From an uncultured Chitinophagales bacterium (GTDB taxonomy: Bacteria; Bacteroidota; Bacteroidia; Chitinophagales; JAHDHT01), in NCBI GenBank assembly GCA_938023075.1, contig CALHDG010000155.1, positions 1-37,858 of the forward strand: a stretch of 37,858 nt of DNA, given 5' to 3'. Below are positions 4,985 through 37,028 of the stretch, piece by piece (the stretch's first letter is position 1; the number at the start of each line of letters is the position of its first letter). Both the position numbers and the translations under genes were made by a program. The notes beneath the pieces are model-generated. The model was not told where the DNA came from. It did not search any database and saw only the letters and a list, made by a program, of their open reading frames with translations.

Positions 4985-5686
4985 TCATTTAGGATTGGTA
5001 GCCCAAACGCTCACCTCAGGAATAAAGCCTCTGTCATCCATTTCTAAAGTAGCTTTTATAGTGTGGGCAATTTCTTCCGGTCTAAGTTTGCTTGCTTCGG
5101 CTTCACGTTCTACTCGTTCGGTATTATTAAAGGCAGTAGTTACTTCGCTAGGGTTAACCAATATTACCCTAATGTTGTGTGGACGTAATTCTGCCCGCCA
5201 ACATTCGCTTAAACCGCGTAAAGCAAATTTACTGGAGGCATAAACAGAACCTCGTGCAAAACCTCGTAAGGCGGCGGTAGAAGCTACATTTATGATATGT
5301 CCTTTATTTTGTTGCTTGAAATGCTTTACTATTTCTTGAGTAAGCAAGGTAAGACCAAATACATTAGTGGCGTATATTTTTTCAAAATGCTCAATTTTAA
5401 CTTCCTCTAAGGTTGGAAATTCTCCGATACCGGCATTGTTCACCAACACATCTATGCCTTGCAAGGCATCTGTCACTTTTTTGCAATTGCTTGCTAGGTT
5501 GCTATAATCACTCACATCAAAATGAACAGCAATAGCTCCAATACCGGCAGCAATCTTTTCTAACTTGTTTGCATCTCTACCGGTAATAACTACGGTTGCA
5601 CCCGCCTCAACTAATAAGGCAGCAGTGGCTCTGCCAATACCGGAACTTCCTCCGGTTACTAAAATTTTAGCTCCATCTAATTTCAT
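4985..5686 (-). CDS. SDR family NAD(P)-dependent oxidoreductase
   Basis: A classical short-chain dehydrogenase of 233 residues, slightly short for the family (about 250). The Rossmann nucleotide-binding motif TGGSSGIG is at residues 11-18, NNAG at 83-86, and the catalytic Ser136 (INVAS), Tyr149 and Lys153 (YASSK) are all present. Arg37 after the second strand suggests NADP preference. A proline-containing PSEVTT segment follows, as in many SDRs. It is cytosolic and the substrate cannot be told from sequence. The ATG at 5686 directly precedes the first strand. A near-consensus -7 element, TACTATTG (one mismatch to TAnnTTTG), lies a few bases upstream on the minus strand. The gene is cut off from the preceding gene by the terminator at 5718. 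Confidence 0.92.
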   Translation of the reverse strand: MKLDGAKILVTGGSSGIGRATAALLVEAGATVVITGRDANKLEKIAAGIGAIAVHFDVSDYSNLASNCKKVTDALQGIDVLVNNAGIGEFPTLEEVKIEHFEKIYATNVFGLTLLTQEIVKHFKQQNKGHIINVASTAALRGFARGSVYASSKFALRGLSECWRAELRPHNIRVILVNPSEVTTAFNNTERVEREAEASKLRPEEIAHTIKATLEMDDRGFIPEVSVWATNPK

Positions 5687-5717
5687 AGGACAATAGTACT
5701 CATTTTGTGTTATAAAA

Positions 5718-5750
5718 AAAAGCGACTACTCTTTAAAAGTAACCGCTTTT
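5718..5750 (-). terminator. Rho-independent terminator of the 1089-residue protein gene
   Basis: AAAAGCG at 5718 and CGCTTTT at 5744 pair, with inner TACT/AGTA pairing, and the minus-strand reading ends in a run of eight U. It lies 30 bases past the stop codon at 5780 and before the SDR start at 5686, so it separates the two minus-strand genes. Confidence 0.85.
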
Positions 5751-5779
5751 TAAATTTATTTTAAGACCAAGTCAAATTA

Positions 5780-8700
5780 CTATTCTTTTAAAAATTTCTT
5801 GGTGTGTACTTTACTTTCAACTACAGAAGTAACAAAGTATAAACCGTTTGGCAAATCGGTCAATTGAGCAGTATACTTCATTCCATCAAAGTTTAAGCTG
5901 TTTTCATTAAACAATAACTTACCACTAACATTGTAAATTTCAATAGATGACATGGTAGCATTGTTAGTTAATGAAATATCAACAAAGCTGCTTGCCGGAT
6001 TAGGATAAATGTTGATTAAGCTATTGTCTGTTATTACTAATGAACCATTTCTTTGACCTCCACAATTGTTACCAAACTCAACAATAGGGCTCATTTCAGA
6101 TGCTCTGGCATTTGCACAAGTTACTTTTAAACCAAACTCGTACATAGAACATTCATCTAAACCAAAAAGAACTACAAATGGTACCACTGTATTATAAGTT
6201 TTCCATTCCGCTGCATCATCAGTTTTGTAATATAAAGTATACATAGAACCTGAAACAACATCCCAACTTAAAATAGCTGAATTATCTGTTACGTTTAATG
6301 GTACTAATTGAGGACTAATATCAGCACAAGTAACACAACCTGCTGTTGTGAAACGTTGATTCAATGAAGTGATTACATTATTACCACACGGATAATTTAA
6401 GCGTACCTCATATTCTTTACAAGTACCTAAGTTTGGAATAATAACATATCCGTTTCTTTGTGAAACAGAAATCCATCGATTTGAGTCAACAGCTTTGTAC
6501 TGTAAACTCGCATTGGTTTGCGGACTCCATTGTATAGTAGCCGAATTGTTAAAAACAGAATTTACAATAGGAGCTTCTGCCAACATACCACCATTACAAA
6601 TAGAAGGTGCTACAATACTTTGTTGAACAACCTCACAATTATCTATATCATCTTGAGAAATTTCTAAACGAACATCTTCAGCACAGTCGCAACCGGTAGC
6701 TGTATATTCACCTGGTAGAGTAACGGCACCGGCAACTACATCACCATCTGCATTTCGAATAGATGGGGATCCAGAACAAAACGAAAAGCCTTCTATGTTA
6801 CAAACTAATGAATCGCCTGGTAAAATTAAATTAGTATCAGTAACAAGTGTGGCTCTAGGGAAAAGCACTCCACTTATGCAAGTTAAATTATCTGGTACAA
6901 ATTCAATTGAGTATGGACAACAACATGTTCTTGTAATGGTTACAGCATTTGATAATTCTGCACATGTAGAGTTAGAAACCAAATCAACAGCGCTATCGCC
7001 AATTTGAGGTACACTTGCTAAATCACCATCCCAATTTAGATACCAAATTAAACAAGTTCCTTCTGTACCGCCATAAAAATCTAAATTTGGCGCATCTTCA
7101 AAAAGTTCTAAAATTATACCATCACCATCTGTAATAACCCATGCATTATTTTCTCCGTTACCGGCATTAAGTACTTCAAATTGTACAAGGTCTAGAGTTT
7201 CGTCATTTACACAAAGATCAAATGAATCACCACCACCGGCAATTGCAATTTCAGCAGAAGCAGCTGTACAGCAAGTTTCGCGTACAATGGGTATTGAATT
7301 AGAAAGTACGGCACACTCTGAATTATTAACAATGGTTGATGCATTTGCACCAACTGCAGGAGTTTCACTTAAGTCGCCATCCCAATTTAAGTACCAAATT
7401 AAGCAAGTACCCTCACCGGCTCCGTCTAATACAAAAGGTGGAGCATCTGGCATAGCTAAAATATTAGCCTCTTGATCGGTAATTACCCAAGCCGAATTTT
7501 CGCCGCTACCACCGTTAACCGCTACATCAATAGGTTCATTTATCTCATCATCAATACAAATTGAGCTAACACTACCAACTAAATCAATTGTAGCAGCTTC
7601 TGCAGTGCAACAAACTTCTCGTATAATTGAAACAGGATTTGATAGCTTAGCACAAAAAGAATCGTCCACAATAGCAGAAGCATTTTCGCCTACTGCAGGT
7701 GCGTTAGCTAAGTCGCCATCCCAACTTAAATACCAAATTAAGCAAGTACCTTCGCCGGCTCCGTCTAATACAAAAGGTGGCGCAACTGGTAAACCTAAAA
7801 TGTTAGCCTCTTGATCGGTGATTACCCAAGCCGAATTTTCGCCGCTACCACCGCTAACCGTTACATCAATAGGTTCATCTATCTCATCATCAATACAAAT
7901 TGAGGCATCACTACCAACTAAATCAATTGTAGCAGCTTCTGCAGTACAACAAACTTCTCGTTTAACCGAAATAGGATTAGATAGTTGAGCACAAAAAGAA
8001 TCGTCGACAATAGCAGAAGCATTTTCGCCTACTGCCGGTGCGTTAGCTAAGTCGCCATCCCAACTTAAATACCAAATTAAACAAGTACCTTCGCCGGCTC
8101 CGTCTAATACAAAAGGTGGCGCATCTGGTAAACCTAAAATGTTAGCCTCTTGATCGGTAATTACCCAAGCCGAATTTTCGCCGCTACCACCGCTAACCGT
8201 TACATCAATAGGTTCATCTATCTCATCATCAATGCAAATAGTTCTTTCTGTATTCCCACTTGGCATAGCAATTTCTGCAGCTTCTGCGGTACATAGTTTA
8301 CAAGCATCGGTACATACTGCGGTACCGAAACCTATATCATCTCCAATATAAATTCTAGAATAAGTTGGATCATCTGCTGCTGAAGAATCATTACCATAAA
8401 AGATTTTGATTTCATTAATGCAAGATTCAAAAACTACCCGGATACTTTCATCTTCTTCACTAAAAGATGAACTGGTAGTACCAACCGCGCAGTTGCCCGA
8501 AACCTCAACGTTACCGCAATAAGCGCTTACTGAAGGTAGTACTTCAACCCCATCTAAATAACCAACTACACATACTCTTTCTATTTGTTCTGAGCCACCA
8601 TAATATTTACGGTCTAAATCTCTAATAGTAAAAGCAACATAATCGGAAATTAATGATAAGTTGTAGGTAATTTCAAGTTCATCATTAGTTTGTTTTGGAT

Positions 8701-9049
8701 TGATACCAATTGCTAAACCAGTATTATTTTCATAACTGCCATCGTCATCTGGATCAACCATTGGTTGCAAAGGAGCAAATATGCCATCTGGATCAATAAG
8801 ATTAATGTCAAAGGTTTGCTCACCTACTGTGTATGAACCTGATGTACTGTTAAATCTCCAATCAATACCTGGTTGCGAAAAATCTAAAACATTTACATTG
8901 TCGCAAGGATTGAATTGAGGTGTACAAATAGGTTCGGTGTTGTTGGCTTCTTGTGCAAATGCGTTACAACATAGTAGTAAGGCAATAAAAAAACAAAAAG
9001 ATTTGTTCACTAAACTAAATTTAGTGTTGTAGTTAAATTTTTTTCTCAT
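5780..9049 (-). CDS. Large secreted repeat protein, fibronectin III-like, type A T9SS sorting domain
   Basis: A 1089-residue exported protein. Residues 1-33 are a signal peptide ending in NAFAQ. Residues about 35-245 form an N-terminal beta-rich domain with paired cysteines. Residues about 252-710 hold four tandem repeats of about 112 residues, each opening CTAxxAxI, with SGGSGENSAWVITD, a GEGTCLIWYLxWDGDL block, and a closing C. Two fibronectin type III-like domains follow (about 825-905 and 915-990). The last ~75 residues, starting IYPNPASSFVDI and ending in VHTKKFLKE, are a type A C-terminal sorting domain for type IX secretion. It is probably a surface or secreted adhesive or matrix protein; no catalytic site is seen. 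The intragenic repeats are also nearly identical in DNA, listed separately. Confidence 0.92.
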   Translation of the reverse strand: MRKKFNYNTKFSLVNKSFCFFIALLLCCNAFAQEANNTEPICTPQFNPCDNVNVLDFSQPGIDWRFNSTSGSYTVGEQTFDINLIDPDGIFAPLQPMVDPDDDGSYENNTGLAIGINPKQTNDELEITYNLSLISDYVAFTIRDLDRKYYGGSEQIERVCVVGYLDGVEVLPSVSAYCGNVEVSGNCAVGTTSSSFSEEDESIRVVFESCINEIKIFYGNDSSAADDPTYSRIYIGDDIGFGTAVCTDACKLCTAEAAEIAMPSGNTERTICIDDEIDEPIDVTVSGGSGENSAWVITDQEANILGLPDAPPFVLDGAGEGTCLIWYLSWDGDLANAPAVGENASAIVDDSFCAQLSNPISVKREVCCTAEAATIDLVGSDASICIDDEIDEPIDVTVSGGSGENSAWVITDQEANILGLPVAPPFVLDGAGEGTCLIWYLSWDGDLANAPAVGENASAIVDDSFCAKLSNPVSIIREVCCTAEAATIDLVGSVSSICIDDEINEPIDVAVNGGSGENSAWVITDQEANILAMPDAPPFVLDGAGEGTCLIWYLNWDGDLSETPAVGANASTIVNNSECAVLSNSIPIVRETCCTAASAEIAIAGGGDSFDLCVNDETLDLVQFEVLNAGNGENNAWVITDGDGIILELFEDAPNLDFYGGTEGTCLIWYLNWDGDLASVPQIGDSAVDLVSNSTCAELSNAVTITRTCCCPYSIEFVPDNLTCISGVLFPRATLVTDTNLILPGDSLVCNIEGFSFCSGSPSIRNADGDVVAGAVTLPGEYTATGCDCAEDVRLEISQDDIDNCEVVQQSIVAPSICNGGMLAEAPIVNSVFNNSATIQWSPQTNASLQYKAVDSNRWISVSQRNGYVIIPNLGTCKEYEVRLNYPCGNNVITSLNQRFTTAGCVTCADISPQLVPLNVTDNSAILSWDVVSGSMYTLYYKTDDAAEWKTYNTVVPFVVLFGLDECSMYEFGLKVTCANARASEMSPIVEFGNNCGGQRNGSLVITDNSLINIYPNPASSFVDISLTNNATMSSIEIYNVSGKLLFNENSLNFDGMKYTAQLTDLPNGLYFVTSVVESKVHTKKFLKE
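6950..8300 (-). repeat. Four in-frame tandem repeats of about 335-345 bp
   Basis: Inside the 1089-residue protein gene, units start near 8300, 7945, 7612 and 7270 on the minus strand. Units 1 and 2 (about 7605-8220) are almost identical over long stretches in both DNA and protein. Unit 3 carries scattered changes, and unit 4 is clearly divergent. The gradient suggests that the two first units were duplicated or homogenised most recently. Confidence 0.85.
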
Positions 9050-9467
9050 AAGATTTAAAAAATTAGTGATTAAATTGTGATTAAATTGGATTAAAATTAT
9101 TTAATGAAGATGTAACTTAGTAAGTCCTTATGAATAATACTGCTAATTTTAGGAGATTGAATTAGTATAGTATAATTGCTAAATTACCGATCTAATCTTT
9201 TGCAAATAACAGTGAACTTCTTGAAATAAAAAAATTTTTTTGGATTTAACTTTGTATTTTCATCAATAAAATTTTCAACCATGTGTACAAATCGATATGT
9301 TAATTTTTTATGCATTAGTATTTATCATTTAACAAGTCGAATATATTATATATTTACATAATTAGATTAAGTAAAAATGTAAAAAACGCAAAAGCTTTTA
9401 TCAACGTACTAGTAAAACCTTGCTTTTTAATTGTTAATGTTATTAACCTACTCTATAACATAAATAA
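9050..9467. other. Gene-free stretch with an orphan promoter-like site
   Basis: No convincing gene is present. A perfect TAnnTTTG match, TAACTTTG, lies at 9247-9254 on the plus strand. It is followed at 9281 by an ATG opening only a 26-codon frame of low complexity, which I do not believe is a gene. The DNA is very A/T-rich. It borders the cluster of mobile elements starting at 9468. Confidence 0.4.
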
Positions 9468-9737
9468 CTGAAGTTTCGATAGTAGCTATTTGTTTTGTTT
9501 ATGATTTTCAATTATTTGTAAAGATTCAATAATAATTATTTTACTTAAAATTTTGTTTTTGTGATGCTTTACAAGTAGTTTAAATTGTTCATGATAAAAC
9601 TTGTCATTTCGACCGAAGGGAGAGATCTTATATAAACACCTACTTTTCTTTGAATTGAGGGGAAGATTTCTCATTTCATTCGAAATTACAGAATTTTAAG
9701 GACAACTTCGAACATTACTTTACTGCCGAAACTTAAG
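9468..9737 (+). mobile_element. MITE-B copy 1 (270 bp)
   Basis: The ends are CTGAAGTTTCGATAGTAG at the left and, in reverse complement, CTTAAGTTTCGGCAGTAA at the right: an inverted terminal repeat of about 17 bp with few mismatches. The flanks TAAATAA (9461-9467) and TACATAA (9738-9744) match at six of seven positions, consistent with an aged 7-bp target duplication. The interior is closely similar along its whole length to the copy at 32702. It contains a palindromic segment at about 9602-9690 (TGTCATTTCGA ... TCGAAATTACA) of the REP-like type common in this phylum. There is no coding capacity. Confidence 0.85.
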
Positions 9738-9932
9738 TACATAATTTATCTTTAAACAATTAGAGTGGGCTTAAACATAATCGATATATTTAATATGGCA
9801 GCTATTGATTGAACAAGCAAAATTTCATCAAATTATATTGATAGATGTTCAACCGGATTGTATATTACAAACAGCGGAAGTTCGGCAAATAACTTTGATG
9901 GTAAATTTTTTTTTGTAGTTGATAGTTTATTA

Positions 9933-10153
9933 CTTAAGTTCCGGTAGTAAAATAATTACTATTCCAATGGAACCTGTTCCATTGTGTTAATAAAAGCTTA
10001 ACCACTTTACAACAACAAGTGAACCTGTTCACTTGGATGATTTTATGCATTATATGTTGAATTAAGTTAACTTAACCTTATTGAGTACTTCAATTTCCAT
10101 AAATAATTTAGATTTAAGTTATTATGAAATAAATACGACTGCCGAAACTTAAG
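9933..10153 (+). mobile_element. MITE-B copy 2 (221 bp), different interior
   Basis: The termini CTTAAGTTCCGGTAGTA and, at the right, TACGACTGCCGAAACTTAAG form the same inverted repeat as the other MITE-B copies. The 7-bp flanks are identical: TTTATTA at 9926-9932 and 10154-10160. The interior is unrelated to copies 1 and 3. It holds two perfect hairpins with the same CT loop: CAATGGAAC/GTTCCATTG at 9965-9984 and CAAGTGAAC/GTTCACTTG at 10016-10035. There is no open frame, so transposition must be in trans. Confidence 0.85.
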
Positions 10154-10218
10154 TTTATTAGTTGATCGAAACAGATCCTAATCAAAATATTTATGAAGAT
10201 ATTTGGCATTAAAATAAT

Positions 10219-10469
10219 TGACAAGTTTATAAAAGTGGTTGATACTTTTTTGTTTTCGAGTGCCTTTGTTTTTTAATTTTCTACGAAGAACCGAAGTTTT
10301 TAAACTAGCCCCGATTGCAGCGGTTATGCTGCCTGAAGCGCAGAATTTTGTCGCATAGCCGCAGCATTTGAGCGGAAAGCGGGACTGCCCCATATTGAAA
10401 AGCATAATAGTTTCGCTTCAAAAAATATTAAAAAAGTGTCTACTACTTTATTGTTTAGATAAACTTGTT
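10219..10469 (+). mobile_element. MITE-A copy 2 (251 bp), complete
   Basis: A complete member. The left end TGACAAGTTTATAAAAGTGG and right end TTTAGATAAACTTGTT are imperfect inverted repeats. The 7-bp flanks AAATAAT (10212-10218 and 10470-10476) are identical. The central core at 10306-10385 starts TAGCCCCGATTGCAGCGG, has inner arms ATGCTGC/GCAGCAT and ends AAAGCGGGAC. The left arm shared with the other full copies includes CGAGTGCCTTTG and CGAAGAACCGAAG; the right arm has TTTCGCTTCAAAAAA. It lies 30 bases upstream of the hemL -7 element. Confidence 0.88.
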
Positions 10470-10499
10470 AAATAATCGTATACAAAAGCATTCTTTCTG

Positions 10500-10507
10500 T
10501 ATGTTTG
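10500..10507 (+). promoter_or_regulatory. hemL -7 promoter element
   Basis: TATGTTTG matches the Bacteroidota -7 consensus TAnnTTTG exactly. Transcription would start around 10512-10514, which makes the TTG at 10505 untranslatable as a start and favours the TTG at 10526. No good TTG box is seen about 20 bases upstream; that position lies just past the MITE-A target duplication. Confidence 0.6.
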
Positions 10508-10525
10508 CATAAAAATATTTTAGCC

Positions 10526-11815
10526 TTGTTTAAACTCAATCAGTCAGCAAAACATTTTCAACAAGCCCAACAAGTTTTAGTAGGTGGTGTCAACTCCCCG
10601 GTACGTGCATTTAAATCGGTGGGAGGAAAGCCGTTGTTTATAAGCCATGGAAAAGGCAGTAAAATATTTGATGTGGATGGCAATGAATATATTGATTACG
10701 TAGGTTCATATGGTCCTTTAATTGCCGGACATGCGCATCCTAAAGTGGTGAAAGCTTTACAACAATCTGTTGAAAAAGGCTGCACGTTTGGTGCGACCAC
10801 TCAGAACGAAATTGCCTTAGCCCAATTAGTGATAGAAGCCTTTCCTTATATTGATAAAGTACGCTTTGTTAATAGTGGCACCGAAGCCATTTTAAGCACT
10901 CTGCGTTTGGTAAGAGCTTTTACCAACAAAAACAAAATTATCAAATTTAGAGGTTGTTACCACGGGCATTGCGATGCTTTGTTAGTTGATGGTGGTAGCG
11001 GAATTATGACATTGGGTATGAGTGGCTCGGCAGGAGTGCCTGAAAATTTGGTGAATAATACTATTTCAGTTTCATTTAATGATAAAGAAGGTGTTGAAAA
11101 TGCTTTTACTAAATATGGAAAAGAGATTGCTGCCGTTGCCATTGAACCGGTAGCCGGTAATATGGGTGTTATTTTACCAGAAGCTGACTTTCTAACTTTT
11201 TTGAGGGAGATTACCAAAAAACATAATGCTTTATTAGTAATTGATGAAGTGATGACCGGTTTTAGACACGGTTTTTATGGAGCTCAACAAGTTTTTAATG
11301 TACAGCCCGATATAACTTGTTTAGGCAAAGTTATTGGAGGTGGTTTGCCGGTAGGTGCTTATGGTGGTAAAAAAGAAATTATGGATATGGTGGCTCCTTT
11401 AGGCGGCGTATATCAGGCTGGTACCTTATCAGGCAATCCATTAGCGATGCAAGCAGGCATTAGCACTTTGCAAATGTTAAAACAAACTGAAACTTATACG
11501 CATCTTCACCATATTACAGCCCGCTTAAAAAATGGTTTAGAACAACTGTCAACTCATTTTAATGTACCGATGCAAGTGCATCAATTTGGCTCTATGATCT
11601 CCGTGTTTTTTACTTCGAGTAAAGTATATAATTATGATACGGCTAAAACCACCGATACCGACTATTTTGCCCGTTTATTCTGGAAATTATTGGAACATGG
11701 CGTTTATTTGCCACCCAGTAATTTTGAGAGTTGGTTTTTAAGTAGCGCACATAGCATAGAAGATATTGATAAAACAATAGCTGCCTTTGAACAATCTTTC
11801 AAGGAGATTGTTTAA
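10526..11815 (+). CDS. hemL: Glutamate-1-semialdehyde 2,1-aminomutase
   Basis: This enzyme converts glutamate-1-semialdehyde to 5-aminolevulinate in the C5 route to tetrapyrroles, using PLP, in the cytosol. The protein is 429 residues from the TTG at 10526, normal for the family. The N-terminal GGVNSPVRAF signature is followed by FVNSGTEA (PLP phosphate contact), the IDEVMTGFR aspartate motif, and GKVIGGGLPVGAYGG, where the lysine (residue 268 with this start) forms the Schiff base. There is no in-frame ATG near the start. An upstream TTG at 10505 overlaps the -7 element, so the later TTG, giving MFKLNQSAKHFQQAQQ, fits both the promoter and the usual N-terminus. It appears to be a single-gene unit; no terminator is obvious downstream. 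Confidence 0.96.
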   Translation: MFKLNQSAKHFQQAQQVLVGGVNSPVRAFKSVGGKPLFISHGKGSKIFDVDGNEYIDYVGSYGPLIAGHAHPKVVKALQQSVEKGCTFGATTQNEIALAQLVIEAFPYIDKVRFVNSGTEAILSTLRLVRAFTNKNKIIKFRGCYHGHCDALLVDGGSGIMTLGMSGSAGVPENLVNNTISVSFNDKEGVENAFTKYGKEIAAVAIEPVAGNMGVILPEADFLTFLREITKKHNALLVIDEVMTGFRHGFYGAQQVFNVQPDITCLGKVIGGGLPVGAYGGKKEIMDMVAPLGGVYQAGTLSGNPLAMQAGISTLQMLKQTETYTHLHHITARLKNGLEQLSTHFNVPMQVHQFGSMISVFFTSSKVYNYDTAKTTDTDYFARLFWKLLEHGVYLPPSNFESWFLSSAHSIEDIDKTIAAFEQSFKEIV

Positions 11816-12018: not shown

Positions 12019-12025
12019 TTTGCTT

Positions 12026-13042
12026 ATGAAACAGTTTTTTTATATTGTAACATTACTTAGCGTATTAAGTTTAGGAGCCTGTAGCAAAGCCCAAGTTGAA
12101 ACTACTTCTAAAATGGACGGGGTTAGTTTTGTTTCTCCTTCCCGGTCTTTTCCTGAAGAATTTTTATTAGATGTTCAGCAAGTTAACGCGAATTGGGTTG
12201 CCATTTCTCCCTTTGCTTTTTCAAGAGATGGAAATAGCTCAGTTACTTTTAACAGCAATAATCAATGGTGGGGAGAAAAAGCAGAAGGCATTAAAACCAT
12301 TATTGATTATGCTCAAAAAGCAAACCTGCAAATATTATTAAAGCCACAAGTTTGGATGTGGAATAGTTGGGTGGGGTTTTATGATTTATCGACTGAAGAA
12401 GCATGGCTCGATTGGGAGAAAGATTACGAAGCTTACATTCTGACTTTCGCAGAAATAGCGGCGGAGAAAGAAGTCGCTAGTTTTTGCATTGGTACCGAAT
12501 ATAAAATTGCCGCTATAAAAAGAGAAGCCTTTTGGAGAGATCTAATTAATAAAGTTCGCAACATTTATAAAGGAGAACTCACCTATGCCGCCAATTGGGA
12601 CAATTATGAAAATATCCCTTTTTGGGATGACTTAGATTTTATTGGGGTAGATGCCTATTTCCCTTTACAAGAAAAAGCTACACCAGATGTTGCTACCCTT
12701 GTCGAAAATTGGAAGCCCATTAAGGCAGCCTTAAAATCATTTTCTGAAAAACAACAAAAAAATATAGTATTTACTGAGTATGGCTATATGAGTTGTGATT
12801 TTACGGCTTGGAGAAACTGGGAAAACGAAGCCAACCGTGATGCAGTTGGTTTAAATTTAGAAGCACAATCCATTGCATTTGAAGCCTTGTTTCAATCTTT
12901 ATGGAACGAACCTTGGTTTGGTGGTGGGTTTATTTGGAAATGGTATCACAACTATCAAGAATCGGGTGGAACAAACAATAAAGACTATACGCCACAACGC
13001 AAACCTGCCGAAGAAGTGATTAAAAAATGGTATGCCCCTTGA
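12026..13042 (+). CDS. GH113-like glycoside hydrolase lipoprotein
   Basis: A 338-residue lipoprotein. The signal peptide ends in LSLGAC, with Cys19 as the lipidation site. The rest is a TIM-barrel glycosidase resembling family GH113 (beta-mannanase-like): early strand DGVSFVSPSRSF, WVAISPFAFSR, ILLKPQVWMW, then FCIGTEYK with Glu158 as probable acid/base, DDLDFIGVDAYFP, and IVFTEYGYMS with Glu251 as probable nucleophile, and finally FIWKWY near the end. Anchored in the outer envelope, it would cleave beta-linked mannose- or glucose-containing oligosaccharides; the exact substrate is not predictable. The ATG at 12026 is chosen because the upstream TTG at 12020 lies right behind the -7 element. 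Confidence 0.88.
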   Translation: MKQFFYIVTLLSVLSLGACSKAQVETTSKMDGVSFVSPSRSFPEEFLLDVQQVNANWVAISPFAFSRDGNSSVTFNSNNQWWGEKAEGIKTIIDYAQKANLQILLKPQVWMWNSWVGFYDLSTEEAWLDWEKDYEAYILTFAEIAAEKEVASFCIGTEYKIAAIKREAFWRDLINKVRNIYKGELTYAANWDNYENIPFWDDLDFIGVDAYFPLQEKATPDVATLVENWKPIKAALKSFSEKQQKNIVFTEYGYMSCDFTAWRNWENEANRDAVGLNLEAQSIAFEALFQSLWNEPWFGGGFIWKWYHNYQESGGTNNKDYTPQRKPAEEVIKKWYAP

Positions 13043-19192: not shown

Positions 19193-19206
19193 TGCGAAAG
19201 TACGAA

Positions 19207-19335
19207 GAAGCGAACTATAAAGTTTAGCCCCGATTGCAGTGGTTATGCCGTTTGCAGCGTTGGCTTTGAAGCTGAGCACGGCATTTGAACGGAAAGCGGG
19301 ACTACCTTTAGCAATGAACACCGCACTTTCGCTTC
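19207..19335 (+). repeat. Structured core element with extended outer stem
   Basis: TAGCCCCGATTGCAGTGG begins at 19225 and AAAGCGGGAC ends near 19302. The inner stem here is ATGCCGT with ACGGCAT, a compensated variant of ATGCTGC/GCAGCAT in other copies. An outer stem, GAAGCGAA at 19207-19214 with TTCGCTTC at 19328-19335, encloses the core. An A-run follows, so on the plus strand it lacks the U-tract of an ordinary terminator. The full MITE-A arms are absent. It lies directly behind glyS. Confidence 0.8.
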
Positions 19336-19624: not shown

Positions 19625-21472
19625 ATGAGTCATCACAAATATATTTTAATTTACCTTTTTTCTATCTTATCGTTTGGCGGCTTTTCACAGAAAGTAGTGC
19701 CGGGTGGGAACGGTTTAATACCTGATTTTCCGAAGGATACTTGTTTTAAACTGAATCTGGCTGATGTATTTCCGGCAACCTTAGATACCATTTTTGGCTT
19801 GGAAAAATTGTGTGTCAATATTATCCATCCCGATCCGAAAGAATTGGATATTTATTTAGTTGCTCCAGATGAAAATTCGGTGGAAATTAGCACCGATAAT
19901 GGGAATGGAGAAGATATTATTGCTACTTGTTTTAGCATGAGTAGTGCCATTCCGGTTACCGCCGTTAATCAATTGAATGATGTGGAAGTAATACCAGAAG
20001 CTAATTTGGGTGAATTGAATAATGGACAAATGTCCGTTGGTTTATGGCAGCTTTGCATTACCGATGATACCGAAGGAAATTCTGGGGAGTTAGTTTCGTG
20101 GGAGGTGCATTTGGGCGATAATCCGCCGCCACCAGAAGCTGCTACAATTAGTCCGGTTTGTAATACCAATATTACCATTGGCTGTGCTTGCCCCGATGGA
20201 GGAACCAATTGCTTTTTATTACCCGATATTATTATTGCCGAACAGATTATGAGAGAGCAGCATACTGAATTTCCAGGAAAACTGACGGTTACTACCGCAA
20301 CTTCTAATATTGGTTATGGACCTTTAGAATTTAGAGGCACCGGACAGTGGTTTTGTGAAGGCGAACCAGCTCCTGCAGAAGAATATTGTAACAATTATGA
20401 ATTTCCTGAACAATTGGTGGTTCAACGGATTTATCGAAGATTTCCTGATCAAAATTCAGGTTTTGTTGACCGAGAAGCGGGAACGATGAAACATCATGCT
20501 GAGGAAGGACATGATCATCCGCATATTGATAATTGGGCTTTCAACACGTTGAGAATTAGAGGTATTGACCCTGACCCCACTAAATGGCCCATTGTTGGTG
20601 AAGGAACCAAAGTTTCTTTTTGTGCTGAAAATTCGATCCCTTGTTTTGACTATAATTTTTTCTGTGAATATGATTCGGTTTTTTTAGATGTGAATGACAT
20701 GGAGAATGCTCGCATGGGGCAAGTTTATGAATGTAACGCTACGGTACAAGGTGTTTCTGTAGGCTATTCAGACATTTACGGGCAAACTTTAGAAGGACAG
20801 GATATTTCTTTTAGTCCGAATGTGTGTAATGGTAAATATTATGTGGTTAGCGAGTTTGATCCGGATAGTATTTTTCAAGAATTGAATGAAAACAACAATG
20901 TTACCTTTATTGAAATTGAACTTAAAGAACAGTCAGAAGATTGTTGTTCGGTTGATTTTAGTGAACAGCAGTTAGAAATGAATGGCAGTTTTGTTCAATT
21001 TATTGATCGATCGATGCCTATACCAGATAAATGGATTTGGGAATTTGGCGATGGCAAAGCCAGTACTGAGCAATTTCCAGTACATGAATATGCGCAACCG
21101 GGTAATTATTCGGTAACCTTAAGTACCGAAAATCATTTAGGCTGTACCTCTTTTAAAACTATAGAAGTGATGGTTGATTCTGTTAAAGTTGGTATTGATG
21201 AAAATATAGTTAATCAATTTAATTATCAATCAACCTTAGTACCCAACCCCATGAAAGAAACGGCTATTTTTAGTTACTCCATTCATAAAACCGGTTTTGT
21301 TCGGGTAGATGTTTTAGATGCCACCGGAAGGTTGGTTCAAAACTTACAACCCCTTAAAAAGCAAACTTCTGGAGACTATCAGTTAGCTTTAAGTGATTTG
21401 CAGAAAGGTATTTATCTAATTCAAACCAATTTAAACGGCTACTCCATTTTTAAGAAGTTAGTGGTTTTGTAG
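19625..21472 (+). CDS. Secreted lysyl-oxidase-like protein with P domain, PKD domain and T9SS sorting domain
   Basis: A 615-residue exported protein with signal peptide to about residue 21. Residues about 35-165 form a proprotein-convertase P-like jelly roll (KELDIYLVAPDEN, GLWQLCITDDTEGNSGEL). Residues about 198-435 match the lysyl oxidase family: H296-x-H298-x-H300 (GHDHPH) corresponds to the copper ligands. Lys329 in EGTKVSFC and Tyr385 in GYSDIYGQ fall where the lysyl tyrosylquinone cofactor residues of animal enzymes lie. The family-typical C, GQDISF, NGKYYVVSEFDPD and ELNENNN segments are present. A PKD domain (WEFGDG) spans about 442-518 and a type A sorting domain about 535-615. It would act outside the cell, possibly oxidising amines or cross-linking surface proteins; activity is inferred. 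Confidence 0.9.
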   Translation: MSHHKYILIYLFSILSFGGFSQKVVPGGNGLIPDFPKDTCFKLNLADVFPATLDTIFGLEKLCVNIIHPDPKELDIYLVAPDENSVEISTDNGNGEDIIATCFSMSSAIPVTAVNQLNDVEVIPEANLGELNNGQMSVGLWQLCITDDTEGNSGELVSWEVHLGDNPPPPEAATISPVCNTNITIGCACPDGGTNCFLLPDIIIAEQIMREQHTEFPGKLTVTTATSNIGYGPLEFRGTGQWFCEGEPAPAEEYCNNYEFPEQLVVQRIYRRFPDQNSGFVDREAGTMKHHAEEGHDHPHIDNWAFNTLRIRGIDPDPTKWPIVGEGTKVSFCAENSIPCFDYNFFCEYDSVFLDVNDMENARMGQVYECNATVQGVSVGYSDIYGQTLEGQDISFSPNVCNGKYYVVSEFDPDSIFQELNENNNVTFIEIELKEQSEDCCSVDFSEQQLEMNGSFVQFIDRSMPIPDKWIWEFGDGKASTEQFPVHEYAQPGNYSVTLSTENHLGCTSFKTIEVMVDSVKVGIDENIVNQFNYQSTLVPNPMKETAIFSYSIHKTGFVRVDVLDATGRLVQNLQPLKKQTSGDYQLALSDLQKGIYLIQTNLNGYSIFKKLVVL

Positions 21473-21608: not shown

Positions 21609-21856
21609 AATAAGTGTATCGAAACAATAAAGCAGTTGACACTTTTGCTATAATTTTTTTGAAGCGAAACCTTATAGCATTATAATAACGTAGGTCCCGC
21701 TTTCCACTCAAATGCTGCGCCTACGCACAAATGCCAACGCTTCATGCAGCATAACCGCTGCAATCGGGGCTAGTTTAAAAACATCGGTTCTTCGTACAAA
21801 GCAAAACGGAGGCACTCAAAATCAGAAACAGTATCAACCACTTGATAAACTAGTCT
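21609..21856 (-). mobile_element. MITE-A copy 3 (248 bp), complete, inverted
   Basis: Read on the minus strand it has the family order: left end near ACTAGTTTATCAAGTGG, CGAAGAACCGATG, core TAGCCCCGATTGCAGCGG (21772 down to 21695) with arms ATGCTGC/GCAGCAT, AAAGCGGGAC, TTTCGCTTCAAAAAAA, GTCAACTGCTTTATTG, and a degenerate right end. Flanks are seven T on each side (21602-21608 and 21857-21863), consistent with a 7-bp target duplication, though homopolymers are weak evidence on their own. It sits 136 bases behind the lysyl-oxidase-like gene. Confidence 0.85.
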
Positions 21857-30404: not shown

Positions 30405-32690
30405 ATGAAATTAATTAGTTATGTTTTTTGTGTCATATTGTTATTATCTAAATCCCCAAAATTAAATATAACCAACGATACTACAGCTAATAATTTTACG
30501 GTGGTTAAGGCAATCATTCCCCATCCAAATGTTTTAAATGTAACTGAACAATTTTCTGACATAAAAGAATTAAGGCTTTCAGAAACTGGAAAAAATTATG
30601 AAATTGCCTTCAATGCGGTGAAAGATTATCCTTTTAAAAACTTGCGTTTAAGTAAAGATAAAAATGCCAACGTCGTCATCTCATCATTGGAAAATAATAG
30701 TAATATAATTGGGGCTTTTCAATTCAGTATTTCTAGTAAAAAAATAAGCATTGCTGCCAATGAACAAGAAGGGATTTGCAATGCGATGAGCCGGATTTGT
30801 CAATTATCGGTATTAAACGGAGGTCGTTTACCCATTGTTGAAATCAGTGATGCTCCTCAATTCGGATATCGTGGTATGCACTTAGATGTATGCCGGCATT
30901 TTTTTCCGGTTTCTGATGTTAAAAAGTATATTGATTTTCTGTTTTTTTATGGATACAATACTTTTCATTGGCATTTAACCGAAGATCAAGGCTGGCGTAT
31001 TGAAATTAAAAAATATCCAAAATTACAAGAAATAGCTGCTTATAGAAATGAAACATTGATTGGACATTACAATGATCAACCTCACCAATTTGATGGTACA
31101 CAATACGGCGGATTTTATACCCAAGCGGAGGTACGTGAAGTAGTAAATTATGCTGCCATGCGAGGCATTAGCGTTATACCCGAAATTGAATTGCCCGGAC
31201 ATAGTAGCGCCGCCTTAGCAGCTTATCCGGAGTTGGGTTGCGAACCAAATAAGAATTACGAAGTAGCAACAAAATGGGGAGTTTTTGAAGATATTTATTG
31301 CCCAACCGAAAAAACATTTGTCTTTTTAGAAGAGGTACTCAGTGAAGTGATTGAGTTGTTTCCATCAAAATATATCCATATTGGTGGCGACGAAGCACCT
31401 AAAGCTGCATGGAAAAAAAGTGCCTTTTGCCAACAACTCATTAAAGAAAAAGGATTGGAAGATGAACATGGTTTACAATCGTATTTTATTACTCGTATTG
31501 AGCAATTTTTGAATAGCAAAGGCAAGTCAATTATCGGTTGGGATGAGATTTTGGAGGGCGGATTGGCACCCAATGCAACGGTAATGTCGTGGCGCGGAAT
31601 AACTGGCGGAATTGAAGCGGCAAAGTCGAAACACCAAGTAATTATGACACCAACCACCCATTGTTATTTTGATTATTATCAATCTGACCATCCTGATGAA
31701 CCTCTTGCTATTGGTGGGTTTCTGCCATTAGAAAAGGTGTATCATTATGACCCAATACCGGAATCATTAGGAACTGAATTTCATCAATTTATAATTGGTG
31801 CACAAGGCAATGTTTGGACAGAATACATGAAAAAATTTGACCAAGTTGAATATATGGCACTTGCCCGAATGGCAGCATTATCAGAAGTATTGTGGTGCGA
31901 TGACCGAGTGAAGAACTATGAGCAATTCAAAAACAATCTAGATCAACATATTAATTATTGGGTTTCACAAAATGTAAATATTGCCAATCATTTGCTTGAC
32001 ATTAACACTGCTATTACTACTGAATATAAAACAGGAACTACAGTTGAAATTAAAAGTATACCCGAAGGTGCAACAGTTGAATATGCCAAGCCAAGTGATG
32101 CGACTTTTAAGTTATTTACTGAAACTAAATTAACACTTAAAGAAAATGGCATATATCAATTTAAAGCTATTCGTAGTGGAAAATCGGGTCGTTTAAAAAC
32201 TATCGATTACCAATCGCATTGTGCAAATTTTGCGAAGATTACTTTAAAAAATATGCCTCACGAAAAATATAGTGCCAACGGACCAACTTCTATATTTAAT
32301 GGCATAACAGGTTCAAACGAAAAATATGGTGATACTGAATGGTTGGGTTTTAATGATGGAACTAATTTCGAAGCACAAATTGAATTTCCTGAAATAGAAA
32401 AAATCAACACTCTTTCAATAAGATTTTTTAAGGGTGAAGGGCAATGGATTTACTTACCAAAGCATTTTAAAATATTTAGTTCAGCAGATGGCGAACATTA
32501 TCAATTAGTTGCCGAAACCAGTAACATCAAAACAAACACTAAAGTTGCTACCGTTGTTTTAGAAAATTTGAACTTAGCCACCCAATACCTGAAAATTGAG
32601 GTAGCCAATTTTGGCGAGATTCCTGACGGTAGGATGGGTGCCGGACACGGAGCTTGGCTGTTTGTTGATGAGATTATTGTTAGTCCATAA
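30405..32690 (+). CDS. GH20 beta-N-acetylhexosaminidase
   Basis: A 761-residue exported exo-glycosidase that removes terminal N-acetylglucosamine or -galactosamine from the non-reducing end of glycans or chitin fragments. A hydrophobic N-terminal export signal covers about residues 1-17. A GH20 N-terminal alpha/beta domain runs to about 150. The catalytic TIM barrel starts at FGYRGMHLDVCRHFFP and includes YNTFHWHLTEDQGWRIEI, PEIELPGHS and IHIGGDEAPKAAW, with Asp329 and Glu330 as the substrate-assisted catalytic pair, then GWDEILEGG and MSWRG. After the barrel, about 530-605 is a chitobiase-type C-terminal beta domain. The last ~150 residues look like a discoidin (F5/8 type C) carbohydrate-binding domain. 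There is no type IX sorting domain, so it is probably periplasmic or cell-bound. A MITE lies 12 bases past the stop. Confidence 0.95.
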   Translation: MKLISYVFCVILLLSKSPKLNITNDTTANNFTVVKAIIPHPNVLNVTEQFSDIKELRLSETGKNYEIAFNAVKDYPFKNLRLSKDKNANVVISSLENNSNIIGAFQFSISSKKISIAANEQEGICNAMSRICQLSVLNGGRLPIVEISDAPQFGYRGMHLDVCRHFFPVSDVKKYIDFLFFYGYNTFHWHLTEDQGWRIEIKKYPKLQEIAAYRNETLIGHYNDQPHQFDGTQYGGFYTQAEVREVVNYAAMRGISVIPEIELPGHSSAALAAYPELGCEPNKNYEVATKWGVFEDIYCPTEKTFVFLEEVLSEVIELFPSKYIHIGGDEAPKAAWKKSAFCQQLIKEKGLEDEHGLQSYFITRIEQFLNSKGKSIIGWDEILEGGLAPNATVMSWRGITGGIEAAKSKHQVIMTPTTHCYFDYYQSDHPDEPLAIGGFLPLEKVYHYDPIPESLGTEFHQFIIGAQGNVWTEYMKKFDQVEYMALARMAALSEVLWCDDRVKNYEQFKNNLDQHINYWVSQNVNIANHLLDINTAITTEYKTGTTVEIKSIPEGATVEYAKPSDATFKLFTETKLTLKENGIYQFKAIRSGKSGRLKTIDYQSHCANFAKITLKNMPHEKYSANGPTSIFNGITGSNEKYGDTEWLGFNDGTNFEAQIEFPEIEKINTLSIRFFKGEGQWIYLPKHFKIFSSADGEHYQLVAETSNIKTNTKVATVVLENLNLATQYLKIEVANFGEIPDGRMGAGHGAWLFVDEIIVSP

Positions 32691-35810: not shown

Positions 35811-37028
35811 ATGGCATCAATTAAAGCGGTAATAAGACCTAATAAAACTAAGACTGATGGCACAGCACCAGTAGCTTTGCGTATCACGCATAAACAAAAG
35901 ACCAAATACATTTGGTTAAAGCGGTATATCAACCCTAAAAATTGGGATGCTAACCGTCAGAAAGCTAAAGGTATGAGCAAGGCTGCTAATGAACTGAATG
36001 TATTGATTAACAAATTGAAGTCGAACTATCAATCAATTGTTGATGAATTAGAGGTAAATCGAAATACCTACACATTACAGGATATTGCAGATGTTATTGA
36101 AATTAAGCAGAATGAAAAAGAGCAGATTTGCTTTCATACCTATTTGGACAACTTTATAACCACTAACCCTGATAAACTACAATTTGGTACATTAAAGAAA
36201 TATAAAACACTTCAATCTCATTTAAAAAACTATGCACCGAGTTTATCATTTGATGATATTTCACCAAGTTTTCTAAGCAATTTTGAGAACCATTTAAAAG
36301 ATGAACATAAGCTGCGGATAAACTCCGTTCATTCACTAATGAAGAACATCCGTAAGTTAATGGTTAAAGAATACAATTTAGGAACTATAAGCGACCATCC
36401 GTTTAAAAAGTATAAGCTAAAAACAGAGACAACAAAAAGAGATTATTTAACTGCGGATGAAATACAAACTATCGAAGATTACCAGCCTACTAATCCATCA
36501 CAGCAAATCGCTAAAGATTTATTTGTATTTGCCCTCTACACAGGCTTACGGTTTTCTGATATTTGTTTTATTACACCGGATAATATCATTACCAATAATA
36601 ACGATGATGGAACTACCAACTACAAGATTTATTTTACAATGTCAAAAACAGGTGAGCCAATTTCTTTTAAACTGCCAAATAGTGCAATTACAATACTCAA
36701 AAAATACAACTTGACTGATGATAGCCAATTTATCTTTCCAGTAATTAATCTACCGCCCGATAGTACAAATGATAGGTTGATAAATAAGAAAGAAAGCCGT
36801 AATGCCTACATCAATAAAATATTAAAAGAAATTGCCGCAGCCGTAGAAATAAAAAAGAATGTATCTTTTCACATTTCCCGTCATTCTTTTGCTACTAAAG
36901 CCTTAACTTTGGGTATTAATATGGAAGTCGTCTCAAAGCTATTAGGACACGCTGATTTAAAGACTACACAGATTTATGCTAAGATTGTGGACAAAGCTAA
37001 AGACGATGCTATGGATTTATTTAATTGA
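35811..37028 (+). CDS. Tyrosine recombinase/integrase of an integrative element
   Basis: A 405-residue site-specific recombinase of the kind found on Bacteroidota integrative elements. Residues about 1-95 are an arm-DNA-binding domain (ALRITHKQKTKYIWLKRYINPKNW). Residues about 105-200 are the core-binding SAM-like helical domain. Residues 210-405 are the catalytic domain with all the key residues: Arg247 (TGLRFSD), Lys279 (MSKTGEP), His354 and Arg357 (HISRH), His380 (LLGHADLKTTQIYAK) and the nucleophile Tyr389. The gene lies next to the truncated tRNA and reads into the element. ATG at 35811. It ends just before the next gene, which is probably co-transcribed. Confidence 0.94.
   Translation: MASIKAVIRPNKTKTDGTAPVALRITHKQKTKYIWLKRYINPKNWDANRQKAKGMSKAANELNVLINKLKSNYQSIVDELEVNRNTYTLQDIADVIEIKQNEKEQICFHTYLDNFITTNPDKLQFGTLKKYKTLQSHLKNYAPSLSFDDISPSFLSNFENHLKDEHKLRINSVHSLMKNIRKLMVKEYNLGTISDHPFKKYKLKTETTKRDYLTADEIQTIEDYQPTNPSQQIAKDLFVFALYTGLRFSDICFITPDNIITNNNDDGTTNYKIYFTMSKTGEPISFKLPNSAITILKKYNLTDDSQFIFPVINLPPDSTNDRLINKKESRNAYINKILKEIAAAVEIKKNVSFHISRHSFATKALTLGINMEVVSKLLGHADLKTTQIYAKIVDKAKDDAMDLFN

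Follow-up and report, generated by a model that had tools for sequence, protein, structure and literature searches.

The locus considered here raises the question of whether a bacterial protein that resembles the animal lysyl oxidases (LOX) works as a copper amine oxidase on the cell surface and, if so, which amines it oxidizes. The whole stretch of DNA analyzed, 37,858 nucleotides long and hereafter called the window, is contig C155 (CALHDG010000155.1) of a 6.12-Mb assembly in 288 contigs from an uncultured Chitinophagales bacterium, and the features of the protein are collected in Table 1. Its animal relatives are copper enzymes that cross-link collagen and elastin, and cross-linking of surface proteins by the bacterial LOX is possible. 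The reading that we favor, with a probability of about 0.72, is that the protein is a divergent LOX that leaves the cell through the type IX secretion system (T9SS) and acts on the cell surface as an active amine oxidase with copper and lysine tyrosylquinone (LTQ).

Table 1. Features of the LOX gene and its product (coordinates are those of the window).
Feature	Position	Strand	Basis
P-LOX-PKD-T9SS protein gene, 615 aa	19625..21472	+	ORF and domain scan
Signal-peptide-like N terminus, residues 1-22	19625..19690	+	Sequence reading; helix 3-16 in model
P domain, residues 64-162	19814..20110	+	Pfam PF01483 (P_proprotein), 30.2 bits, cut-off 21
Lysyl oxidase (LOX) domain, residues 198-440	20216..20944	+	PF01186 above cut-off; model; LOXL2 Z 14.9
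His291, fourth histidine (LOXL2 His623 / LOX His289)	20495..20497	+	Alignment, H in 49/55
Copper motif H296-D-H298-P-H300 (predicted)	20510..20524	+	All three His in 53/55
Lys329, predicted LTQ lysine	20609..20611	+	Present in 54/55
Tyr385, predicted LTQ tyrosine	20777..20779	+	Present in 54/55
PKD domain, residues 437-520	20933..21184	+	PF18911 (PKD_4, 468-517), 46.3 bits, cut-off 27
Type A T9SS C-terminal sorting domain, residues 540-614	21242..21466	+	PF18962 (Por_Secre_tail), 39.1 bits, cut-off 27

As judged from sequence profiles and a predicted fold, the protein is a member of the lysyl oxidase family. It scores 26.3 bits on the Pfam profile PF01186 (Lysyl_oxidase; cut-off 20.4), over residues 363-437 only, which correspond to the C-terminal half of the domain, and a single-sequence phmmer search against the PDB returned PKD domains only and no LOX. 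With a profile made from 16 divergent relatives, human LOXL2 (E 1.1e-7) was the only PDB sequence to fall below E 0.01, and three further PDB sequences were listed at E 0.095 to 0.83. In this profile alignment, HRHYH, EGHKASFC and CWDMY of LOXL2 fall on HxHxH, EGxKxxFC and DxY of the subfamily; only the C-terminal piece, which includes DxY, is significant (34.7 bits), the piece with HxHxH and the lysine being correctly placed at just 3.7 bits. PF01186 itself matches 47 of 55 divergent relatives at E 0.001.

The predicted structure leads to the same family. When the model of the LOX domain (residues 176-440; pLDDT 94, pTM 0.90) was submitted to Foldseek, two chains of 5ZE3, the human LOXL2 precursor, were the sole matches under E 0.001. 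Superposition on LOXL2, which the preliminary description had proposed as a check, gave a fold match in VIA-align with Z 14.9 and 2.7 Å over 165 residues at 22% identity; the second-best fold match of the model was a CARDB domain (Z 7.3). In the full-length model (mean pLDDT 84.7, pTM 0.58), in which the domains are not reliably positioned relative to one another, residues 196-436 resemble LOXL2 (Z 12.9), residues 21-166 the P domain of furin (4omc; Z 13.2, rmsd 2.1 over 115 residues) and residues 437-520 a PKD1 domain (6aem; Z 12.8). The original claim of a LOX-like domain with its copper and cofactor residues was borne out, since PF01186 scores above its cut-off and H296, H298, H300, K329 and Y385 lie where they had been placed. 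The further claim that the protein is a T9SS substrate with P and PKD domains likewise stands: all three Pfam matches and TIGR04183 in the sorting tail (34.6 bits, cut-off 23) exceed their cut-offs, and the genome encodes an SprA homologue (SprA_N in a 2588-aa frame) together with 8 PorP_SprF matches. The 615-aa protein is thus apparently a T9SS type A cargo, for which export is predicted from these signatures.

Within the family, the protein is a member of a divergent LOX subfamily that occurs mostly in Chitinophagales. PF01186 has a match in 81 of 298 genomes of the order, and the divergent profile matches 44 of the 298 with over 100 bits, as read from the match list; in a phylum-wide sample it matched 5 of 395 genomes, the long matches being in the window's genome, in G087 of the same order and in G475 of the same class. 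Five PF01186 matches were found in the window's genome, whose closest relative in the comparison set is G001 of the same family; one is canonical (133.7 bits) and four are divergent (25.6 to 34 bits), two of the latter forming a tandem pair on contig C27. A quick tree sets canonical and divergent LOX apart with support 100, with the warning that long branches meet (L053, which joins the canonical rows, L004, L052, L100 and L095). Eleven P-domain rows of the main group lie on one branch with support 86, which is below the starred level, and two other P-domain members, L103 and L084, are placed elsewhere. For 9 of these 11 rows the P-domain label comes from single Pfam scans, that of L035 being marginally under the cut-off (20.7 vs 21), and for L017 and L037 it comes from close relatives and from the total of 13. 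Among the 55 divergent proteins, Pfam domains were counted as P in 13, Ig_7 in 35, PKD in 9 and Por_Secre_tail in 38. In another group of frames, L096-L101, which are 937-1651 aa long, the divergent LOX domain has its catalytic residues and is confined to the N-terminal 440 residues.

Canonical Bacteroidota LOX proteins, such as the paralogue on C112 of the window's genome (L001), share with the window protein the Pfam family, HxHxH, the lysine and DxY, but score about 60-134 bits to PF01186 against 26.3. The subfamily has been restructured around the active site. Cysteines at the positions of LOXL2 Cys685 and Cys695, on either side of the tyrosine, are present in none of the 55 divergent proteins, whereas they are kept in 12/12 and 11/12 canonical Bacteroidota LOX, respectively, and the cysteine before the first motif histidine (LOXL2 Cys625) is present in 0/53 divergent and 15/15 canonical proteins (the disulfide pairs of LOXL2 were taken from a part of PMC9180022). 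Conversely, extra cysteines occur in the divergent proteins at positions 347 (50/55) and 401 (48/55), where the canonical rows have none. Because the equivalents of Cys625, Cys685 and Cys695 are gone, the active-site scaffold differs from that of LOXL2, and the window protein falls outside the animal LOX/LOXL type as delimited by its cysteines. Human LOXL2 and the window protein have in common the fold, HxHxH, the LTQ lysine and tyrosine, the fourth histidine and a cysteine four residues past the LTQ lysine; SRCR domains are found only in LOXL2, and P, PKD and T9SS domains only in the window protein. With its catalytic residues present but no cysteine at three LOXL2 positions, the subfamily is relevant to the question of which part of the LOX disulfide set LTQ formation requires.

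All five candidate catalytic residues are present in 53 of the 55 distinct members of the subfamily that were read, including the four divergent paralogues of the window's genome. The 55 were picked by profile score and coverage, independently of the residues, and matches of 100 bits or less, those with under 170 of 250 positions covered and duplicates were left out; L052, L053 and L097 are among the dropped rows, though they have the catalytic residues. From 20 places taken from lower in the profile list, 14 joined the 55, and L097 and L114 (low score) and L102, L111, L112 and L113 (repeats of earlier rows) were rejected. Alignment A5, from which the comparison of canonical and divergent columns (12 canonical rows) was made, had its rows preselected by the HxHxH and lysine pattern, so that the invariance of these residues in it carries no evidential weight. 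Both exceptions are open frames: L095 (G019:C6) has lost all five residues, and L106 (G060:C2) the three histidines. L095 has the P-LOX-PKD-T9SS architecture, and its genome also has an intact P-LOX. Because this residue-free frame persists, the fold is apparently independent of the five residues, and because the residues are dispensable for an open frame, their retention in the other 53 speaks for catalysis. The sequence comparison therefore suggests that the five residues are kept for catalysis. As an observation in its own right, L095 and L106 are natural pseudoenzyme candidates; with such residue-loss relatives, several copies in one genome and a surface tail, the function of a bacterial LOX becomes testable.

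The fourth histidine, present in most of the divergent proteins, is replaced by D, N, G or I in the canonical Bacteroidota LOX (12/12). It is separated from the first motif histidine by five residues in the window protein and 9 other rows and by three in 43 (53 rows), the window protein thus having two extra residues there compared with those 43. It also occurs in two distant relatives, from a metagenome record titled Prosthecobacter debontii and from Haloactinopolyspora alba. A statement in Grau-Bove et al. gives this histidine as not present in bacteria, and in LOXL2 a His623 mutant formed LTQ at below half (PMC9694262, section 2.8).

It had been proposed that a large distance between Lys329 and Tyr385 in a predicted structure would refute the LOX assignment. 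This is unsound, because in the crystal of the LOXL2 precursor the LTQ lysine and tyrosine are themselves 16.6 Å apart, as given in passages of PMC9694262 and PMC9659206, and the distance is therefore no valid refuter. Along the chain, 56 residues separate the lysine from the tyrosine in the window protein and 36 in human LOXL2; in divergent proteins this spacing ranges from 54 to 125 residues (median 57; 53 rows) and in canonical ones from 29 to 34 (15 rows).

Counting against the favored reading are the low PF01186 score over the C-terminal half, the three missing cysteine positions, the paralogues without the residues and the two extra residues after His291. If it is correct, the protein would probably mature as follows. 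The signal peptide would direct it to the periplasm, where it may fold with disulfides and, as expected of a LOX family member, bind copper via H296, H298 and H300. In this family LTQ arises by self-processing with copper and oxygen, and K329 and Y385 would form it in this way. T9SS substrates pass through the outer membrane in the folded state, and the C-terminal domain would direct the folded LOX protein along this route to the cell surface. Once exposed, the enzyme may convert primary amines to aldehydes, releasing H2O2 and ammonia. The targets, which are a guess, would most probably be lysine side chains, whether on surface, matrix or foreign proteins, and the P and PKD domains would probably keep the LOX domain near its target.

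What the enzyme would oxidize admits of several answers. The best-surviving alternative, to which we assign somewhat less than even odds, is an active, broad amine oxidase that is not a cross-linker and that serves in nitrogen scavenging from amines or supplies H2O2 against competitors. The sole characterized prokaryotic LOX found, that of the archaeon Haloterrigena turkmenica (HTU-LOX), is an active amine oxidase with wide specificity that acts on many small amines, glycine and some antibiotics, according to a part of PMC6452851. HTU-LOX resembles the window protein in being a prokaryotic protein of the LOX family, and a figure legend of that paper marks the three copper histidines and the LTQ residues as conserved across LOX groups; it differs in being archaeal and in that an inhibitory stretch at the N terminus accompanies its signal peptide, its activity having been shown on many amines. 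That a prokaryotic LOX is active also counts in favor of the main reading. A broad oxidase also agrees with the lack of any obvious substrate gene that recurs in the LOX flanks examined and with the few lysines (0 to 4) in the Gly-X-Y stretches of the collagen-like ORFs read. A polymer as target, however, would suit the surface tail and the binding-type domains (P, PKD and Ig) at least equally well.

An enzyme exported by T9SS that cross-links the cell's own surface or matrix proteins appears rather doubtful. It would be in keeping with the five LOX paralogues and 146 DUF11 matches of a single genome, with the tandem pair of divergent LOX genes, whose neighbors are a PorP/SprF gene and a giant frame with DUF11, and with the PorP/SprF-like gene found directly upstream of P-LOX in two genomes of one genus (G019 and G032), PorP/SprF proteins being partners of T9SS adhesins. 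A PorP/SprF-like gene lies directly beside LOX in just 3 of 43 stretches, however, namely the own tandem locus, G019 and G032, and farther off in four (L132, L133, L161 and L162); these labels come from a small home-made profile and many stretches stop at contig ends, so that misses are possible. A conserved LOX operon was rejected on this count. The tandem pair (L120; G000:C27:82000-96000, at 5414-10581 and upstream) directly follows the PorP/SprF gene and the DUF11 frame, which encodes 5178 aa on the same strand. A gene with DUF11 is labelled in 2 of the 43 LOX stretches, the window and the tandem locus, as found with one phmmer query that may have missed others, and because DUF11 matches number 146 genome-wide, a DUF11 neighbor alone means little.

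The preliminary description had gone further in naming the large repeat proteins encoded nearby as an example of possible substrates. This proposal is left unsupported, which is not to say disproved, since gene order does not favor it and the large ones are lysine-poor. In eight named LOX loci (six P-LOX, one other divergent LOX and one actinobacterial; two under 7 kb), no repeat-protein gene of the window has an orthologue next to LOX. What did match were PKD/Ig-type domains, a protein in L045 related to the 878-aa one at 26% identity and, at 29-31%, an SDR and a methyltransferase. Lysine makes up 1.4% of the DUF11 protein, 1.9% of the 1089-aa and 1.5% of the 878-aa protein, and 4.2% of the 527-aa protein and 3.7% of the LOX protein, all being raw values with no genome-wide baseline. 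Recurrent neighbors of LOX are few. The P-LOX loci are alike in gene sizes in two pairs (L049 with L050, and L045 with L048), and genes of a likely two-subunit 2-oxoacid oxidoreductase adjoin LOX in five genomes (three by sequence, two by size), an adjacency that seems to reflect shared ancestry of the gene order rather than a common pathway.

Collagen-like proteins were considered as another substrate of a cross-linker. The window's genome has 38 PF01391 collagen matches, and of the collagen-like ORFs read, 13 have Gly-X-Y runs totalling 75-192 residues and one has 30, with 0-4 lysines each in the Gly-X-Y part. Collagen-rich status (10 or more matches, the search scoring about 20 candidates per genome) is commoner in genomes with LOX (29/84) than in those without (24/214; odds ratio 4.2, Fisher p 7e-6), as is any collagen (48/84 vs 87/214, p 0.014), both tests ignoring kinship; the 84 comprise 81 genomes with a PF01186 match and three with long divergent-profile matches. 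One family supplies 17 of the genomes that have both LOX and collagen-rich status. For divergent LOX the link is weak (collagen-rich 13/44 vs 40/254, p 0.03; any collagen 21/44 vs 114/254, p 0.75), and for P-domain LOX it is not significant (4/11 vs 49/287, p 0.11). The excess over all genomes with LOX counts in favor of a cross-linker; collagen-like proteins as its substrate were set aside. Apart from this, three contigs of the genome (C107, C276 and C231; L115, L116 and L117) carry clusters of signal-peptide-bearing Gly-X-Y proteins of 317-403 aa, the C terminus of which is similar in most.

Still less probable is the extended idea that these bacteria have their own lysine cross-linking, delivered by T9SS and performed by a restructured LOX with a disulfide set unlike the animal one, in parallel to the maturation of animal matrix, with the paralogues' locus of LOX, PorP/SprF and giant repeat protein marking one of the substrates. 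That the LOX fold is a pseudoenzyme, serving as a binding module only, as the loss of all five residues in L095 and of three histidines in L106 might indicate, is very unlikely given that the other 53 of 55 proteins, the genome's four divergent paralogues included, keep all five.

LOX in Bacteroidetes was already reported in 2015, in a survey that does not settle what bacterial LOX does (PMC4448552). Among the papers listed by a search of the open-access literature, none dealt with a LOX that has a P domain or is exported by T9SS, and no later one settled the function of bacterial LOX. Bacterial LOX is thus already known, and the restructured T9SS/P-domain branch is one for which no study was found in the open-access literature.

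Some further features of the window were recorded. The promoter consensus TANNTTTG has 59 matches in the window against 62 expected by chance and was discarded as useless. An intergenic repeat of ~80-100 bases has inverted copies that flank the LOX gene (19200-19302 and 21694-21797), and its core also occurs at 13, 10308, 15113, 25769 and 33123. With two mismatches or fewer, the core has 7 matches in the window against 0.25 expected and at least 40 in the own genome (40 scored of 452 candidates). Other domains encoded in the window are GH113 and GH20 glycosidases and a tyrosine-type integrase (12020-13042, 30405-32690 and 35811-37028).
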